Assembly: GCA_021777835.1 (NCBI GenBank)
Contig: JAJYDC010000010.1
Span: 1 to 64,000 of the forward strand
Direction of reading: 5' to 3'
From: Bacteroidota bacterium
GTDB lineage: Bacteria; Bacteroidota; Ignavibacteria; Ignavibacteriales; Ignavibacteriaceae
DNA length: 64,000 bases
The position numbers were made by a program, and so were the translations under genes. Shown in pieces: positions 8,362 through 33,477 of the stretch (position 1 is its first letter; each line of letters starts with the position of its first letter). The notes under the pieces are model-generated. The model was not told where the DNA came from, made no database searches, and saw nothing but the letters and a program-made list of their open reading frames with translations.

Positions 8362-10548
8362 ATGAAACAAGCTCATAAAATATTAAAAGAAGTATTCGGG
8401 TACGAATCTTTCAGATATCTTCAGAAAGAAATAATTCAAAATATTCTGAACAAAAATGATACTTTGGTAATAATGCCTACGGGGGGTGGAAAGTCTATAT
8501 GCTATCAAATTCCAGCGCTACTTTTTGATGGATTAACAATAGTAATATCGCCGTTAATTTCATTGATGAGAGACCAAGTTGAGCAATTACGTCAGCTAGG
8601 AGTAAATGCAGCTTTGTTAAACAGCTCACTTTCCCAGGATATTTACAGAATAAATTATGAAAATGTAAAAACAGGAAAAGCAAAGCTTCTCTACATGGCT
8701 CCGGAATCTTTAGCCAAGGAAGAAATTACAAGTTTGTTAAAAACCATTACTGTAGATTGTATTACTGTTGATGAAGCTCATTGTATTTCGGAATGGGGAC
8801 ATGATTTTAGGAAAGATTATCGTCAGCTTGGAAATTTAAGGAAAAATTTTCCATCTGCAGTTTGCGTTGGGTTAACAGCGACAGCAACACCAAGAGTTCG
8901 GGATGATGTTATAGTAAATTTAAATATGGTTCAGCCCCAAAAATTTGTGGCAAGTTTTAACCGCGAAAATTTATTTCTGCAGGTTTTGCCAAAACGTGAT
9001 GCATTTGAACAAACCGTTGATTTTTTGAAAGAGCACAAAAATCAATCCGGTATCATTTACTGCTTCTCACGCAAACAGGTAGACAGTCTTAATGATGATT
9101 TATCGCATCAAGGCTTTTCAACAAGACCTTATCACGCCGGACTTTCTGATGAGGAAAGAAACAGGAACCAAGATTTATTTATTAAAGATGAAGTCCAGAT
9201 CATTATAGCAACAATTGCATTCGGAATGGGAATAAATAAATCAAATGTCCGGTTTGTACTTCATTACGACCTACCCAAAAATATTGAATCTTATTACCAG
9301 GAGATAGGAAGGTCGGGGCGAGATGGATTGAGAGCCGACTGTCTTCTTTTATTTAGTTACGCCGACATTTCGAAAATAAATTATTTTATTGATCAAAAAG
9401 AAAATGAGCTTGAAATGATTTCAGCAAAAGCTCATTTAAATTCAATGGTTAAATATGCAGAATCGGATATTTGCAGGAGAAACACGCTCATAAATTATTT
9501 TGGCGAGACATATCAAACCGAATACTGTGGGATGTGCGATAATTGTCTTGCTGAGGAAAAGGAAATGGTTGACATTACTATCCCGGCGCAAAAACTTTTA
9601 TCGACAGTAAAGCGGACAGGAGAAATATTCGGAGCCAATTATATTATTGATGTTTTACTCGGAGAAGAATCAGATAGGATATTCAGCAACGGGCATCAAA
9701 AATTACCTGTATATGCAATAGGAAGTGAATTTGATAAAAAGCAATGGCATACATTTGTTAATCAGTTCATCCGAAAAGAAATTCTTACAAGGGATTTAGA
9801 ATTCGGCAGCTTAAAACTTACAAAGAAATCTTACGATGTTTTGTTGAAGAAGGATAAAGTACTTGGATTTATCAAGGAACCGGGACCTATAACCAAGAAA
9901 GTGAAATTCTCCGCAAAAAGCGGCGATCAGGCCTATGATAATGAGTTGTTTGAGCTGCTGCGGAAAAAAAGGAAAGAGATTGCCGAAGAAAACGGTATTC
10001 CACCATACGTAATTTTTAATGATAAGACTTTAACTCAAATGGCTGCAAAACTTCCGCAAAACGAGTCAAGTTTATTGGGAATTAGTGGTGTAGGAATAAA
10101 TAAACTTGAGAGCTACGGGAATATTTTTTTATCGGTTATAAAAAAGTATTGTTCACAAAAAAGGAGTCAAATCTTCCATCCAGGCAAAAAAACGGAGTCA
10201 ATTAGCAGGCAAAGATTAAAAGCTAATTCTGATCTACGCTACACACTTATAGGTGAATCTCTGAATAACGGCGCCTCAATTGAAGAATTAGCCAAAGAAT
10301 ATAAGGTTAAATTGCCTACTATAATTTCTCATCTTGAGCGATATGTCAATGAAGGAAAAAAGATCAGGATTGAAGCACTGACCCAAAGAATATCCTTACC
10401 TAAAGAGAAGTATGCAAAAGTATTTGATGCATTTAAGGCTGAAGGTATGTCAAGTTTATCTATTATTCATGAAAAACTTGGTAATGAAGTTTCCTATGAA
10501 GATCTGCATCTTCTCAGGATAATTTTTAGTGTTACACGCGACATTTGA
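8362..10548 (+). CDS. recQ: ATP-dependent DNA helicase RecQ
   Basis: 728 aa, 3'-5' superfamily 2 helicase for recombination and replication-fork repair. Walker A 'PTGGGKS' (about 39-45), 'DEAH' (about 137), 'GLTATATP' and motif VI 'QEIGRSGRDG' mark the two RecA domains. The Zn-binding subdomain has Cys at 'CRRNTLINYFGE' and 'CGMCDNC'. RQC winged helix spans about 405-515, HRDC about 525-600 ('LRKKRKEIAEENGIPPYVIFND'), and a C-terminal helix-turn-helix (about 630-725, 'GASIEELAKEYKVKLPTIISHL') gives the long form common in Bacteroidota. Its stop lies only 36 bp before the His leader ORF, and a promoter candidate for the his operon overlaps its last codons. Confidence 0.97.
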   Translation: MKQAHKILKEVFGYESFRYLQKEIIQNILNKNDTLVIMPTGGGKSICYQIPALLFDGLTIVISPLISLMRDQVEQLRQLGVNAALLNSSLSQDIYRINYENVKTGKAKLLYMAPESLAKEEITSLLKTITVDCITVDEAHCISEWGHDFRKDYRQLGNLRKNFPSAVCVGLTATATPRVRDDVIVNLNMVQPQKFVASFNRENLFLQVLPKRDAFEQTVDFLKEHKNQSGIIYCFSRKQVDSLNDDLSHQGFSTRPYHAGLSDEERNRNQDLFIKDEVQIIIATIAFGMGINKSNVRFVLHYDLPKNIESYYQEIGRSGRDGLRADCLLLFSYADISKINYFIDQKENELEMISAKAHLNSMVKYAESDICRRNTLINYFGETYQTEYCGMCDNCLAEEKEMVDITIPAQKLLSTVKRTGEIFGANYIIDVLLGEESDRIFSNGHQKLPVYAIGSEFDKKQWHTFVNQFIRKEILTRDLEFGSLKLTKKSYDVLLKKDKVLGFIKEPGPITKKVKFSAKSGDQAYDNELFELLRKKRKEIAEENGIPPYVIFNDKTLTQMAAKLPQNESSLLGISGVGINKLESYGNIFLSVIKKYCSQKRSQIFHPGKKTESISRQRLKANSDLRYTLIGESLNNGASIEELAKEYKVKLPTIISHLERYVNEGKKIRIEALTQRISLPKEKYAKVFDAFKAEGMSSLSIIHEKLGNEVSYEDLHLLRIIFSVTRDI

Positions 10549-29435: not shown

Positions 29436-29915
29436 TTATTTAGAATTATCCAGCAGCATTTTTTCCGGCATCTGAACAGCGACAACCCTTCCGCGTGCGG
29501 TAATTTCCCCGTTTGCAGAAACCGTAATTTCCGAAATTACTTTTCTAGCTTTTATTTCAATTACCTTACCTCTCAATTCAAGTTCGATGTTAAGGGGTGT
29601 TGGTTTAAGATAATCAACCTGAAGAGAAGCGGTAACAAATCTAAACGGCGGTTCACTACCGGGTTGTCTTCCCTCAGCTTTGTATGAGGCTAAGGCTGCC
29701 GTTCCTGTCCCATGGCAATCAACGAGTGAAGCTATAATTCCTCCATATACAAAACCCGGTATTGCTATATGATAAGGCTTCGGAGTATAGTGGGAAATTG
29801 TTTCTTCCCCATCCCAGAAGCTTTTGATTTGGTGACCCTGTTCGTTTAATCGTCCGCAGCCGTAGCAATAGCTAAGATCATCGGGATAGTAGTCTTGTAT
29901 CGATTTTATTTCCAT
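29436..29915 (-). CDS. PaaI-like hotdog thioesterase
   Basis: 159 aa hotdog-fold protein. 'CYGCGRLNEQGHQIKSFWDGEETISHY' and 'GFVYGGIIASLVDCHGTGTAAL' resemble the PaaI/YigI thioesterase group, where 'HGG..a.l.D' helix forms the active site; here the usual His-Gly-Gly is 'VYGGI'. 'ASLQVDYLKPTPL' is the family's central strand. Acts on acyl-CoA, substrate unknown. It lies 22 bp downstream of the transporter gene, so likely co-transcribed. Confidence 0.83.
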   Translation of the reverse strand: MEIKSIQDYYPDDLSYCYGCGRLNEQGHQIKSFWDGEETISHYTPKPYHIAIPGFVYGGIIASLVDCHGTGTAALASYKAEGRQPGSEPPFRFVTASLQVDYLKPTPLNIELELRGKVIEIKARKVISEITVSANGEITARGRVVAVQMPEKMLLDNSK

Positions 29916-29937
29916 ATTAACCTCAATAAGAATTATA

Positions 29938-30780
29938 TTAATAGCCTATTGCGAGTAAAACCAATCCCGCAGTTATTCCAAAAATAAAATTAAAAGCTTT
30001 TACTTTCATTGTATCTTTAACAGAGTATGAAAGCAAAGGTAGAAGTCCATGTCCATCCTGCACCATCGAACTTGTCAGGAGAACTGAAAATGGTATTAGT
30101 CCTCTTGCAAAAAGAGTTACAAAAATTAAATGGGGACCTGATTCCGGTAGAAGCCCTATTAAAGCGCCAAGGAAAAGAAACGCTATTTTATAATGCGAAG
30201 TAAATTCTTCCAGGTGAATATATTTCATTCCAATAGCAACCAAAAGCAGCGCGCCGAATGTCCACAATGCTGTTTTCCAAATATGCTTTTTAACTATATG
30301 TTCGAAGATATGATCTTTTAGGTAGTGTTTAAAATTCTTTTCTTTAGGATGCACTACTAAATCGCCGCATGATGAGCATGTTTTTATTTTAAATCTTTTT
30401 ACAATAATATCAGTGAGAAATCCCCCGAGAATTCCAAGAATAAAAAGCACAGCGAATAAGATTACTGCCCATTTAGGGAACATCGCAAGCATAACAAATG
30501 CTTCGTCTCCCGATACTGAAATCATAGAACCGCTTAATGCTCCGAAACTTATTAATCCGTGCAAATATAAAGAGACATTAGTAAAGCCGCCAACACAACC
30601 GGGTACAGTACCGATCAGCGAAGCAACAACATATTGCGCTCCTTTAGCTTTGCCTGTTAAAAAGGATTCGATCTTTCCCTTTGTCCATACATTTATCAAA
30701 TCAACTATTATCATCATCACCGTAACGAGCAAGGTTATCTCAATAGTATCGCCCAAGACTTTTAATAAAAGTTCATTCAT
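29938..30780 (-). CDS. PF11449-type transporter (putative manganese / ArsP_2)
   Basis: 280 aa with about eight membrane helices. The duplicated motif 'ASLIGTVPGCVGGFTNVSLYLHGLISFGALSGSMISVSGDEAFVML' and, in the second half, 'GLLPESGPHLIFVTLFARGLIPFSVLLTSSMVQDGHG' match the family often labelled putative manganese transporter or ArsP_2. A cytosolic loop has 'CSSCGD', a possible metal site. Substrate unproven; location 1.7 kb upstream of arsR is suggestive but it is a separate transcript with the thioesterase. Confidence 0.8.
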   Translation of the reverse strand: MNELLLKVLGDTIEITLLVTVMMIIVDLINVWTKGKIESFLTGKAKGAQYVVASLIGTVPGCVGGFTNVSLYLHGLISFGALSGSMISVSGDEAFVMLAMFPKWAVILFAVLFILGILGGFLTDIIVKRFKIKTCSSCGDLVVHPKEKNFKHYLKDHIFEHIVKKHIWKTALWTFGALLLVAIGMKYIHLEEFTSHYKIAFLFLGALIGLLPESGPHLIFVTLFARGLIPFSVLLTSSMVQDGHGLLPLLSYSVKDTMKVKAFNFIFGITAGLVLLAIGY

Positions 30781-30800
30781 TTTAAATATATGTTAAGTTT

Positions 30801-30905
30801 CTGAACCATGATTTACTTGATTTTAGGATTTCCTTGATTGAAAAAATAAATTCAGCACGTATTTTAATAATAATTTCATATTGATTTATAAAATCAAGGT
30901 TAAAA
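30801..30905. repeat. Inverted-end repeat unit 1 (right end truncated)
   Basis: Left end CTGAACCATGATTTACTTGA continuing through TTTTAGGATTTCCTTGATT, then the shared A+T-rich middle (AATTCAGCACGTATTTTAAT...). After TTATAAAATC it jumps to AAGGTTAAAAG, missing most of the right inverted end that units 2-4 keep. Member of a four-copy family bracketing the GxxExxY gene. Confidence 0.8.
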
Positions 30906-30916
30906 GATATTAATTT

Positions 30917-31043
30917 CTGAACCATGATTTACCTGATTATATAATTTCCTTGATTAAAAATTAAATTCAACAAGTATTTCAAAATCATTTCAAATTGATT
31001 CATAAAATCTTTTAATCCTTTAATCAAGTAAATCAAGATTCAG
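30917..31043. repeat. Inverted-end repeat unit 2 (overlaps 3' end of GxxExxY gene)
   Basis: 127 bp, from CTGAACCATGATTTACCTGA to AATCAAGTAAATCAAGATTCAG. The two ends are inverted copies of each other over about 30 bp (CTGAA...TTGATTTAC...TGATTA). The right end supplies the last codons and stop of the GxxExxY gene (…NLNLDLLD, stop at 31020-31022). Confidence 0.85.
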
Positions 31044-31409
31044 ATTATTATTATGCAATCTCTTAAACTCCAAACTCTTTGCCCCAAAATTTATTAACAA
31101 ACCAACTTCCATATTATAGGCTTCCAAATAATTTATTGCCTGTGCTAAGTGGACATCTTCCAATCGTATTATCGCTTTCAGCTCAACCATAATTTTTTCT
31201 TCAACAAAAAAGTCGACCCTTCTTGTACCAATATTAAACTCTTTATAAAATATCGGCATTTCTTTTTCTCTCTCAAAACTTAGTGCACCCATATCCATTT
31301 CAATAGCCAAAGCTCGCTGGTAGATTACCTCTTGAAATCCATTACCCAAAATAGAATGCACTTTCATCGCACAGCCGATAATGAGTTTAGTTAATTCTTC
31401 ATATTTCAT
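31020..31409 (-). CDS. GxxExxY protein (PD-(D/E)XK nuclease fold)
   Basis: 129 aa, usual length for the family. The name motif is 'GFQEVIY' (about 24-30). 'RRVDFFVEEKIMVELKAI' gives the Asp...Glu-x-Lys of a PD-(D/E)XK nuclease core. Function of GxxExxY proteins is unknown; they are scattered through bacteria and archaea in a pattern suggesting transfer. Here the gene is framed by four repeats: unit 3 ends up 4 bp before the ATG and unit 2 overlaps its last eight codons, so gene and repeats form one unit. A nuclease acting on the repeats is inference. Confidence 0.9.
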   Translation of the reverse strand: MKYEELTKLIIGCAMKVHSILGNGFQEVIYQRALAIEMDMGALSFEREKEMPIFYKEFNIGTRRVDFFVEEKIMVELKAIIRLEDVHLAQAINYLEAYNMEVGLLINFGAKSLEFKRLHNNNLNLDLLD

Positions 31410-31412
31410 TGT

Positions 31413-31544
31413 CTGATCTATGATTCCCCCAATTTCTTGATTCCCTTGATTAAAAGAATAAATTCAACAAACATTGCTAAATTAATTTATTATTTTAATA
31501 TATAAAATCCTTTAAATCCTTTAGCCGGGTGAATCCTGGTTAAG
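31413..31544. repeat. Inverted-end repeat unit 3
   Basis: 132 bp, CTGATCTATGATTCCCCCAA ... to CCGGGTGAATCCTGGTTAAG. The left end is more diverged than the others; the middle (TTGATT..AAAGAATAAATTCAACAAACATT) aligns with unit 2. Starts 4 bp upstream of the GxxExxY start codon. Confidence 0.8.
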
Positions 31545-31556
31545 AGATATTAATTT

Positions 31557-31673
31557 TTGAATCATGATTTACTTGATTATAGGATTTCCTTGATTAGGAA
31601 ATTAATTCAGCAAGTATTTCATATCGATTTATAAAATTTCTATAATCCTTTGGCCGAGTGAATTCCGGTTCAG
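31557..31673. repeat. Inverted-end repeat unit 4
   Basis: 117 bp, TTGAATCATGATTTACTTGA ... to CCGAGTGAATTCCGGTTCAG. Left and right ends are inverted partners: the right end read backwards is CTGAACCGGAATTCACTCGG, close to the CTGAACCATGATTTACTTGA left-end consensus. Units 3 and 4 are 12 bp apart, as are 1 and 2. The following 150 bp up to the next gene show nothing recognisable. Confidence 0.85.
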
Positions 31674-31824
31674 ACAAAATATTAATAACAATAACATTGA
31701 CTTTATTTTTATTTCCCACCATATCTTACCGAATATGAATGAGTAATGGTACATATTATCTCGATCTTTTCTTGCCTAATTATTATATTTAAATATTGTA
31801 TTAAAATATAAAAGGGAAGTTTAC

Positions 31825-32559
31825 ATGGTAAAAATTATAGGCGGGGTATTCGGCAAACCTAAAGGCAAATCAGGCAATTATGTTTATAGAATCATTAACG
31901 GCATACCATTTGCTTCACTAAGACCTGAAAAATATAATGCAAGCCAAAGCGATTCAGCAAAAGCTAATAGAGGAAGGTTCGGCACTTCAATTCAATTTGC
32001 TAAATATATTAATTCAATCCCCGAACTTTCTCAAATATGGAAATTCTCTAAAATAAAAGGAAATACTTCTTTTAATAAATTAGTGAAGTATAATATTAAA
32101 TCTATTCACGATGGCTTGCTTACCACTTCTAATATCATCACTCCCAATTTAGCAACACATTTTGCGAATACGAAAATTATTTCATTCGATGGGATAACAA
32201 TAAAATTCAATATAAGTTTAAATAATAACACAAAAGCGCCTAAAACAAATTCCCCGTTATTGATTTATGCTGTAATAGCATTTCAAAATCCCAAGCCTAG
32301 GAATAAGGTTCCAATTTCAATAACGCATATATCAAAGGAAATAACATTTTCAGAAATCGAAAGTGCTAATGAATTACAACTAAATTTAACTACATCTCAA
32401 AATAAATTACAGGGTAAGTATAAGTCCTGCATTATTTATTTGACCGCAATACGCGATATACATATACCAAAGAATGCTATTTACTCTTCTCCCTATTCTA
32501 TGTTATTCCCTCTTACAAAGAAGAAAGAAGAAGCGGATAATAAGCTAACTAAATTATAA
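31825..32559 (+). CDS. Uncharacterised protein (DUF6266-like N-terminus)
   Basis: 244 aa, no signal peptide or membrane segment. The N-terminus 'GGVFGKPKGKSGNYVYRIINGIPFASLRPEKYNASQSDSAKANRGRFGTS' has the 'G.GK.GN.V......G..y.R..p....n..t..q...R..F' pattern of DUF6266 proteins found in Bacteroidota; the rest looks like two beta-rich domains. Function unknown. Preceded by AAGGGAAG as ribosome site. It stands alone between the GxxExxY repeat element and the Ehr operon, a position typical of accessory genes. Confidence 0.65.
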   Translation: MVKIIGGVFGKPKGKSGNYVYRIINGIPFASLRPEKYNASQSDSAKANRGRFGTSIQFAKYINSIPELSQIWKFSKIKGNTSFNKLVKYNIKSIHDGLLTTSNIITPNLATHFANTKIISFDGITIKFNISLNNNTKAPKTNSPLLIYAVIAFQNPKPRNKVPISITHISKEITFSEIESANELQLNLTTSQNKLQGKYKSCIIYLTAIRDIHIPKNAIYSSPYSMLFPLTKKKEEADNKLTKL

Positions 32560-32724
32560 TTCACGTTACTGAATAATAGAATACAAGAAAGATGTTGTAT
32601 TGGAGTAATTGAAAGCAGCAGCTCTAGCTAATTACTTCATTATTCAAATAAACTAAGGTTTGCGTAATATTAGTCATAATGTATGTGCAGATAGGTTAGA
32701 AGTTCTATTAAGAGAAATGATTCT

Positions 32725-33477
32725 TCAAATAAAATCCAATATTGCATTTATGATTGTAAGCGGGTGAGGCGGGCATCCGGGTATATATAGGTCAATTTTT
32801 ATTTCGTTCAAGAAGCTTCGATTTAATACATCCGATTCTTCAAATACTCCGCCGCTAATAGTGCAAGCTCCAACTGCAATTACTATTTTCGGGCTGTTCA
32901 CGCTTTTATAAGCATCCATTAAAGCCGGCGCCATATTTTTCGTAATAGGTCCTGTAATTACTATTCCATCCGCATGTCGCGGCGAAGCTACAAAATCGAT
33001 TCCAAACCTGCCCATGTCAAAATTCACATTTCCACAAGCAGCCAGTTCCATCTCACATCCATTGCAGCCTCCGGCAGATACTTGTCGAAGCTTTAATGAG
33101 CGCCCGAATATTTTATGAATTTCCTTTCTCGACTCAATCGCTTCCTTTTCGTAGTCAACAAATAATTCTCCTGAGGTAATTATTAAGTTATCTCTACCGG
33201 TACTGCCTAATTTATATTCATTAGTAAACTTAATTGCTCCCGTTTGACAAGCACGTTCACACTCGCCGCAGAATATACACTTACCCAAATCAATAGAAAG
33301 AGGATTTACTTTTATAGCGTTCGTAGGGCAAACATTTTCGCAATCTGAGCAAGGGCCAGTGCATTTCGATTCATCAATTACCGGGTATCCTCGATGTGTA
33401 GATAAAATCTTTGCGTTTTTGATATCAGGAATCGCCTGATAGCCGTGTTGTCTTCTAAGTTTAATTAAGTCTAACAT
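32725..33477 (-). CDS. Ehr complex small subunit fused to 2x[4Fe-4S] ferredoxin (HyfH/HyfI-like)
   Basis: 250 aa. An N-terminal ferredoxin domain has two clusters: 'CTGPCSDCENVCP' (C-x3-C-x2-C-x3-C) and 'CIFCGECERACQ'. The C-terminal half (about 105-250) is the NuoB/HycG-type subunit with the proximal cluster ligands 'GGCNGCEMELAAC', 'VGACTISGG' and 'PGCPPHP'. In E. coli these are separate genes (hycF/hycG). Electron entry through the ferredoxin domain to the membrane arm is the expected path. All Fe-S ligands are intact even though the partner large subunit has lost its nickel site. Last gene of the operon. Confidence 0.9.
   Translation of the reverse strand: MLDLIKLRRQHGYQAIPDIKNAKILSTHRGYPVIDESKCTGPCSDCENVCPTNAIKVNPLSIDLGKCIFCGECERACQTGAIKFTNEYKLGSTGRDNLIITSGELFVDYEKEAIESRKEIHKIFGRSLKLRQVSAGGCNGCEMELAACGNVNFDMGRFGIDFVASPRHADGIVITGPITKNMAPALMDAYKSVNSPKIVIAVGACTISGGVFEESDVLNRSFLNEIKIDLYIPGCPPHPLTIINAILDFI

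Follow-up and report, generated by a model that had tools for sequence, protein, structure and literature searches.

The window is a stretch of 64,000 nucleotides from contig 42 of the host genome (3.64 Mb in 95 contigs). A GxxExxY gene encoding 129 aa lies on the minus strand at 31020..31409, between an ArsP_2 gene on one side and a gene without a family match on the other. The original prediction placed a GxxExxY gene here, and this is confirmed: the gene is a clear, full-length member of the GxxExxY / PDDEXK_3 family, far above both cut-offs in profile searches (TIGR04256, 135.8 bits with a cut-off of 35; PF13366, 131 bits with a cut-off of 22). Its product, a PD-(D/E)XK protein, is a predicted minimal Cas4/RecB-like nuclease.

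Four repeat units of the GATT type surround the gene, two on each side, as had been described. Unit 1 (30800..30905) has the left end TCTGAACCATGATTTACTTGATT and a truncated right end, and unit 2 (30916..31044) has complete inverted ends and indeed overlaps the gene's final codons and its stop. On the other side, unit 3 (31413..31544) adjoins the start codon, and unit 4 (31557..31674), the outermost on this side, has a degraded right end. The units are clearly related: all six pairs align with scores of 32.5-67, and no score above 25 is reached by up to 3000 random stretch pairs from the window (near-overlapping pairs skipped). They are further organized in two blocks, A (units 1 and 2, 30788..31053, plus strand) and B (units 3 and 4, 31401..31684, plus strand). 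These are identical at 198 of 254 aligned bases in the same, direct orientation and are therefore copies of a single block; the gene is flanked by two direct copies of one two-unit block.

All four units had been credited with inverted ends. This stands for unit 2, whose end score of 19 is reached by 0 of 5000 random stretches, but not for units 1, 3 and 4, whose scores are matched by 107, 884 and 420 of 5000, respectively. These three units are degraded, and clear inverted ends are a property of unit 2 only, which is also the only one of the four to fold end to end into a hairpin as DNA. A better preserved counterpart of unit 3 is recognizable by eye upstream of the gene of the closest relative (L125). 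The predicted 12-bp spacing within pairs holds for the second pair, the gap in the first being 10 bp, and unit 3 begins 3 bp upstream of the ATG instead of the 4 bp claimed. An Rfam scan of positions 29500-33000 of the window returned one sub-threshold chance match and nothing else.

Inverted arrays around GxxExxY genes

Members of the GxxExxY family occur in 46 of 59 relatives. The search gave 129 match rows in the 59 genomes, and 113 loci were analysed, fragments, contig-edge pieces and pieces of one gene being left out. For the 100 loci with a full-length gene and both flanks, the upstream flank was aligned to the reverse-complemented downstream flank. The median score of these genes is 23.2, compared to 10.5 for displaced flanks (91 controls, taken about 800 bp away within the same loci and not from other small genes) and 11 for swapped partners. 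Sixty-four of the 100 genes score above the highest displaced control, and 36 do not; the own downstream flank is the best partner for 28 genes and among the top three for 60. The flanks are also periodic: over the 113 loci, self-matches peak at spacings of 9 bp (468) and 10 bp (332), against 93 and 50 in displaced flanks.

The type of repeat follows the protein. A protein tree was built for 103 of the 113 loci, with repeat labels given by simple motif rules that leave 30 of the 103 rows unlabelled. Its deepest split, with a support of 100/99, separates 52 rows (39 AG, 2 GATT, 11 unlabelled) from 51 rows with 0 AG, 32 GATT and 19 unlabelled. None of 500 label shuffles clusters as tightly, for AG or for GATT. 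This co-variation of motif and clade could be explained by co-inheritance alone. Between hemE and hemN, the motif reads, by eye, CACAGAG in L042 and L077 and CGCAAAG or CGCAGAG in L047, L048, L052 and L076, and a change between genomes affects both arms together. The variable-base identity of units is 0.79-0.83 within an element and 0.53 between elements, and within an element the similarity of units is 0.83 in pairing register and 0.80 off register. Judged from these values, it is the motif, more than the pairing, that is kept uniform within an element. The unit tails read, by eye, TCTGAACC, GTTACAC, TTCACC or ATAGAAC.

The original prediction also let the nuclease act on hairpins that the repeats would form. 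This is not supported: differences between arms show no wobble bias (268 of the G-U type, 304 of the A-C type, 1088 transversions), similarity is nearly the same in and off register, and end-to-end folding fails for three of the four window units. Neither the wobble asymmetry nor the unit register gives support to selection for a hairpin or an RNA stem.

A second set was taken from species genomes and consists of the best 80 of 256 matches to an AG-side query, a choice with little bearing on GATT-type genes elsewhere. In the 77 usable loci of these best 80 of 256, the median framing score is 22.5 vs. 10.0, with 42 of the 77 genes above the highest of 69 controls and 35 not. In this best 80 of 256, the own downstream flank is the best partner for 28 of 77 genes and among the top three for 37, and the 10-bp spacing is represented by 446 pairs, compared to 55 in displaced flanks. 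By record title and general taxonomy, the best 80 of 256 belong to Bacteroidota, Planctomycetota, Acidobacteriota, Chloroflexota, Verrucomicrobiota, Proteobacteria and others. The orientation of the AG hits in the best 80 of 256 is that of a frame: 157 point toward the gene upstream and 140 are inverted downstream, against 34 and 50 in the opposite orientations. Over 177 loci, at least three strict AG units per arm occur in the framing orientation in 47 cases, in the opposite one in 8 and as direct repeats in 13. The relatives of the gene do, then, carry flanking inverted repeats (64 of 100 genes in the first set, 42 of 77 in the best 80 of 256), one of the two points on which the original prediction had staked itself.

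Distant relatives are found in eight plasmid records, three of which were viewed. By eye, Bacteroides finegoldii (L355) has clear arms and Bernardetia (L356) shorter ones, whereas those of Gemmatirosa (L357) are visible downstream only. A phage search with the window protein gave no match. In one relative (L091:1850-2500, G028), one arm beside the GxxExxY gene is expanded, with CACAGAG/CACGGAG modules repeated in tandem over a long stretch.

Dispersed units and occupied or empty sites

Copies of the window-type unit are present beyond the locus, so that the original prediction holds on its second point as well. The end pattern TCTGAACC[N]TGATTTACTTGATT, searched in 59 genomes with at most one mismatch, has 11 matches in the host genome, 3 of them at the window locus, and 0 for the reversed control. 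The exact end occurs in 4 of the 59 genomes (G000, G007, G012 and G021), each with a gene of the window's protein clade; 15 of the 19 genomes with a gene from this 20-row clade have no exact window-type unit end.

A mod-like DNA methyltransferase gene of G007 contains one window-type unit in frame, and the G012 homologue carries one at the same position. Homologues of this gene were found in 4 of 59 genomes, and its use as an empty-site test was dropped, as the best homologue (G012) itself carries the unit. The same loop of the methyltransferase holds a GATT-type unit in L351 (G007) and L352 (G012) and a CHAERSEASK peptide in L353 (G058), which we take to be the product of another dispersed repeat.

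Units of the AG type are far more numerous. With at most one mismatch, the pattern TTACACNGAGNNNCACNGAG has 313 matches in the 59 genomes, vs. 2 for the reversed pattern. All except one (312) fall in the 46 GxxExxY-positive genomes, with the remaining one in the 13 negative genomes (permutation within family groups, p about 0.0001). The 30 genomes with an AG-side gene account for 274 matches and the remaining 29 genomes for 39. Most of these matches are not arms of a gene, since, in the 14 genomes with a full match list, only 16 of 137 are located 1 kb or less from a GxxExxY hit and 121 are farther away. Where AG matches form close pairs (within 150 bp), the tails are inside in 22 cases, as they would be at a junction of two joined ends, and outside in 4. 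The association is not strict at the level of single genomes: 15 of the 46 positive genomes have no AG match, G053 has 11 with only a truncated GxxExxY gene, and G001 has 7 with GATT-side genes only.

Five sites of G005 (L367-L369, L371 and L372) carry near-identical copies of an element about 135 bp long, with the ends GAGTCTGTTGCA and TGCAACACGCTC and an AG palindrome inside. The short flanking matches of this multi-copy element differ in length between copies and were given no weight as target-site duplications. Some copies adjoin CTGCC...GGCAG palindromes, and the copy in L367 has a different right end.

Two intergenic sites are found in several states. Between hemE and hemN, the gap is about 450-520 bp with a gene-bearing element and 22-61 bp in the short state; by eye, arms only, with an internal deletion, are present in G002 and the host genome, a single arm in, e.g., G001 and G025, and a gene-less palindrome of another type in G013 and G019. 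In the host genome (L269, on G000 contig 2, where hemN at 9711 lies downstream), both AG-type arms are apparently present by eye, with most of the gene lost. Between leuS and serS, the gap is about 500-520 bp with a gene-bearing element, and short gaps start from 15 bp; gene-less palindromes are visible by eye in G022, G025 and G045. This site carries the second GxxExxY copy of the host (L015, G000 contig 86, 82162-82497), in which a stop breaks the gene; in G007, G030, G033 and G057 the gene at this site is open. Other palindromes are inserted between leuS and serS in L303 (G052) and L305 (G055), for example of the TCATTCTGAGCGAAGCGAAGAATCTC type in L305, and this spacer therefore accepts several unrelated repeat families.

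The hemE-hemN site is common to 8 GxxExxY loci, and several sites recur in different genera and families, which speaks for prolonged vertical inheritance and little mobility. No target-site duplication was resolved at hemE-hemN or leuS-serS, where the comparison is between species and the ends are palindromic. Nor did the analysis turn up an insertion at strain level, any other target-site duplication or an excised form.

The extent of the conserved unit was followed in nine loci of the window's wider clade (36 pairs). In 8 of the 36 pairs, the main nucleotide alignment takes in the upstream unit: it begins 135-173 bp ahead of the start codon, close to the outer tail of the unit, and ends from 16 bp before to 23 bp past the gene end. 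In the other 28, it does not cover the whole unit, and its start ranges from 113 bp ahead of the start codon to 28 bp beyond it. Most of the eight spanning pairs involve L113, L124, L125 and L150, which have no flanking ORFs in common. This pattern fits a gene and upstream unit that travel together in part of the cases; it is compatible with such joint movement and falls short of proof.

The enzyme, the candidate system and its alternatives

Across 90 sequences, that of the window protein among them, the four residues E27, D66, E76 and K78 are invariant and Q90 and Y94 nearly so. The predicted structure of the window protein (mean pLDDT 94.6) has as its closest solved fold SSO0001 (Z 9.6 over 103 residues, 4.5 Å; the next rows score 7.6 and below), which we take to be a Cas4. 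Foldseek matches the model to the Cas4/RecB-like nuclease core with an E-value of 4.2e-4, and the Cas4 profile weakly matches the protein of L026 (8e-5) and that of the window (0.026). PADLOC and PHROGs give weak Cas4- and RecE-type matches. On this basis, the GxxExxY protein is predicted to be a minimal Cas4/RecB-like nuclease. The only hit of a PDB sequence search, S100-A8 with an E-value of 0.33, was set aside as chance. Cas4 proteins typically have four cysteines that hold an iron-sulphur cluster. The GxxExxY proteins, on the contrary, are only about 125 aa long and have no conserved cysteine: none falls in an invariant or nearly invariant column, and one is present in the majority consensus of the 90 sequences. 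The likeness to Cas4 lies in the fold, the weak profile matches and the nearly invariant Q90 and Y94. With dN/dS values of 0.03-0.12 in 10 of 11 pairs (one was not computable, and some dS values are near saturation), the protein is under purifying selection and is thus kept working.

The gene and its repeats probably constitute one selfish, most likely mobile two-part system that resembles RAYT/REPIN systems and uses an unrelated enzyme. As described in PMC3116915, a RAYT gene is accompanied by short palindromic repeats that match its type and cluster next to it, and further copies of the repeats occur without the gene. The analogy drawn in the original prediction fits, with framing by repeats of the own type, solo copies, co-variation of gene and repeat, and occupied as well as empty sites; the GxxExxY system shares with RAYT/REPIN the dispersed gene-less palindromes that are matched to the gene type. 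The protein between the units is, however, a PF13366 PD-(D/E)XK protein (Cas4/RecB-like) and not a Y1 (HUH) tyrosine transposase, and because the enzyme is unrelated, the system falls outside RAYT/REPIN membership. The arms differ as well, being arrays of degenerate 9-10-bp units, and the framing extends to many phyla, by the record titles of the best 80 of 256. RAYT/REPIN repeats reportedly carry a GTAG or CGTC tag, which the GxxExxY unit ends, by eye, do not have. The further claim that gene and repeats are one mobile unit is borne out as far as framing, co-variation and occupied and empty sites go; the mobility itself is deduced from comparison between species.

In such a system, the nuclease would bind the 9-10-bp motif of its own subclade, presented in inverted orientation as about three or four repeats per arm, and would cut or nick at motif arrays. 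By cutting or by repair, palindromic units, alone or together with the gene, would then be copied into new sites, most of them intergenic. The arms would act as arrays recognised by sequence in double-stranded DNA and not as hairpins that need pairing.

Alternatively, the units may be MITE- or REP-like passengers moved by another enzyme, such as a Y1/IS200-type transposase, with GxxExxY as cargo or as a domesticated neighbour that gains from the framing. Y1 transposases are indeed common (54 of 59 genomes), the number of AG units correlates with that of Y1 genes (rank correlation 0.51; 0.30 when GxxExxY and four-helix-bundle genes are controlled for), and the G005 unit sits within a longer multi-copy element, with the left end GAGTCTGTTGCA. 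The correlation with the number of GxxExxY genes is 0.66 (partial 0.53). Furthermore, 10 of the 13 GxxExxY-negative genomes have Y1, yet all 13 together hold a single AG match, and the motif tracks the GxxExxY clade. The TCTGAACC end is found in 0 of 6 Y1 stretches checked, which include both Y1 stretches of the host genome; they do contain single AG-motif hits, up to five per stretch. The passenger explanation is considered unlikely.

A homing- or addiction-like role, in which the arrays are recognition sites of the nuclease (an operator or a self-limiting target) and cutting of related arrays elsewhere lets repair copy the element in, would suit the predicted Cas4/RecB-like fold with its invariant PD-(D/E)XK set; solo arrays could act as landing sites, and the motif matches the protein clade. 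It is nevertheless improbable: some genes occupy one site across families, and occupied arrays retain the same motif, so that self-cutting would need control. We know of no array-cutting by GxxExxY proteins. A further idea sees the arms as RNA stems, like those of the intervening sequences (IVS) of rRNA genes, and lets the system work through RNA processing. It draws on the similar framing of IVS-type four-helix-bundle genes (18 of 27 loci among the matches listed) and on the complementary IVS borders of Coxiella, which are able to form a stem (PMC4990558), and is very improbable in view of the missing G-U bias, the near-equal register values and the absence of any rRNA or other Rfam match, at gathering score, at all 40 GxxExxY loci scanned (38 of the 193 from both sets and the two of the host genome).

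The two-part, RAYT/REPIN-like reading has other parallels. Like the palindromic elements of Rickettsia, a gene-less palindrome lies in frame within a coding gene (the mod-like methyltransferase of G007 and G012); to our knowledge, the Rickettsia elements have no nuclease partner of the GxxExxY type. In the open-access papers searched, no description of these repeats or of their association with GxxExxY was found. The seven open-access papers listed as containing the repeat strings do not concern bacterial repeats, judging by title and the opening of the abstract, and the passages of PMC8934634 and PMC12085832 in which GxxExxY is named deal with other subjects than repeats.

A gene for a predicted nuclease, with matching arrays and scattered gene-less repeats, suggests a widespread, undescribed class of selfish DNA. 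GxxExxY (PDDEXK_3), present in 46 of 59 relatives and in many phyla, would gain a testable role, with a predicted DNA target for each subclade. Such a system would add a type of nuclease to the enzymes that spread palindromic repeats, would account for a large number of short repeats that are so far unnamed in environmental genomes, and would provide a case, outside CRISPR, of a Cas4-like nuclease linked to repeat arrays.

The framing is shared by a second family. Genes of the four-helix-bundle family TIGR02436, the family of the rRNA intervening-sequence protein, occur in 53 of 59 relatives. Of 30 such loci (the own locus and 29 among the matches listed), 27 were usable, and 18 of these 27, among the matches listed, show inverted framing above the highest of 24 controls. 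Their period is 7 bp, with at least five matches at spacing 7 in 15 of the 27 loci among the matches listed, vs. 2 of 24 controls. Two unrelated small proteins, GxxExxY and the four-helix-bundle protein, share an inverted-array framing. Like the 23S rRNA IVS with its S23p/four-helix-bundle ORF, the GxxExxY element has a small ORF between complementary ends and a patchy spread; unlike it, the ORF belongs to PF13366, the period is 9-10 bp, and no rRNA is present at the 40 loci scanned.

More tentatively, and with somewhat less than even confidence, GxxExxY may be the founding case of elements in which a minimal Cas4/RecB-like nuclease reads short degenerate arrays and spreads itself together with gene-less palindromes, the IVS-type four-helix-bundle protein with its 7-bp repeats being a parallel. 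If true, two unrelated proteins would have one array-framed way of life in many bacterial phyla, and the shared framing of the IVS-type genes would offer an entry into another long-standing puzzle. Inverted arrays with a 7-bp period are visible at the TIGR02436 loci L156, L158-L163, L165, L168, L176 and L180, where the motif varies by locus.
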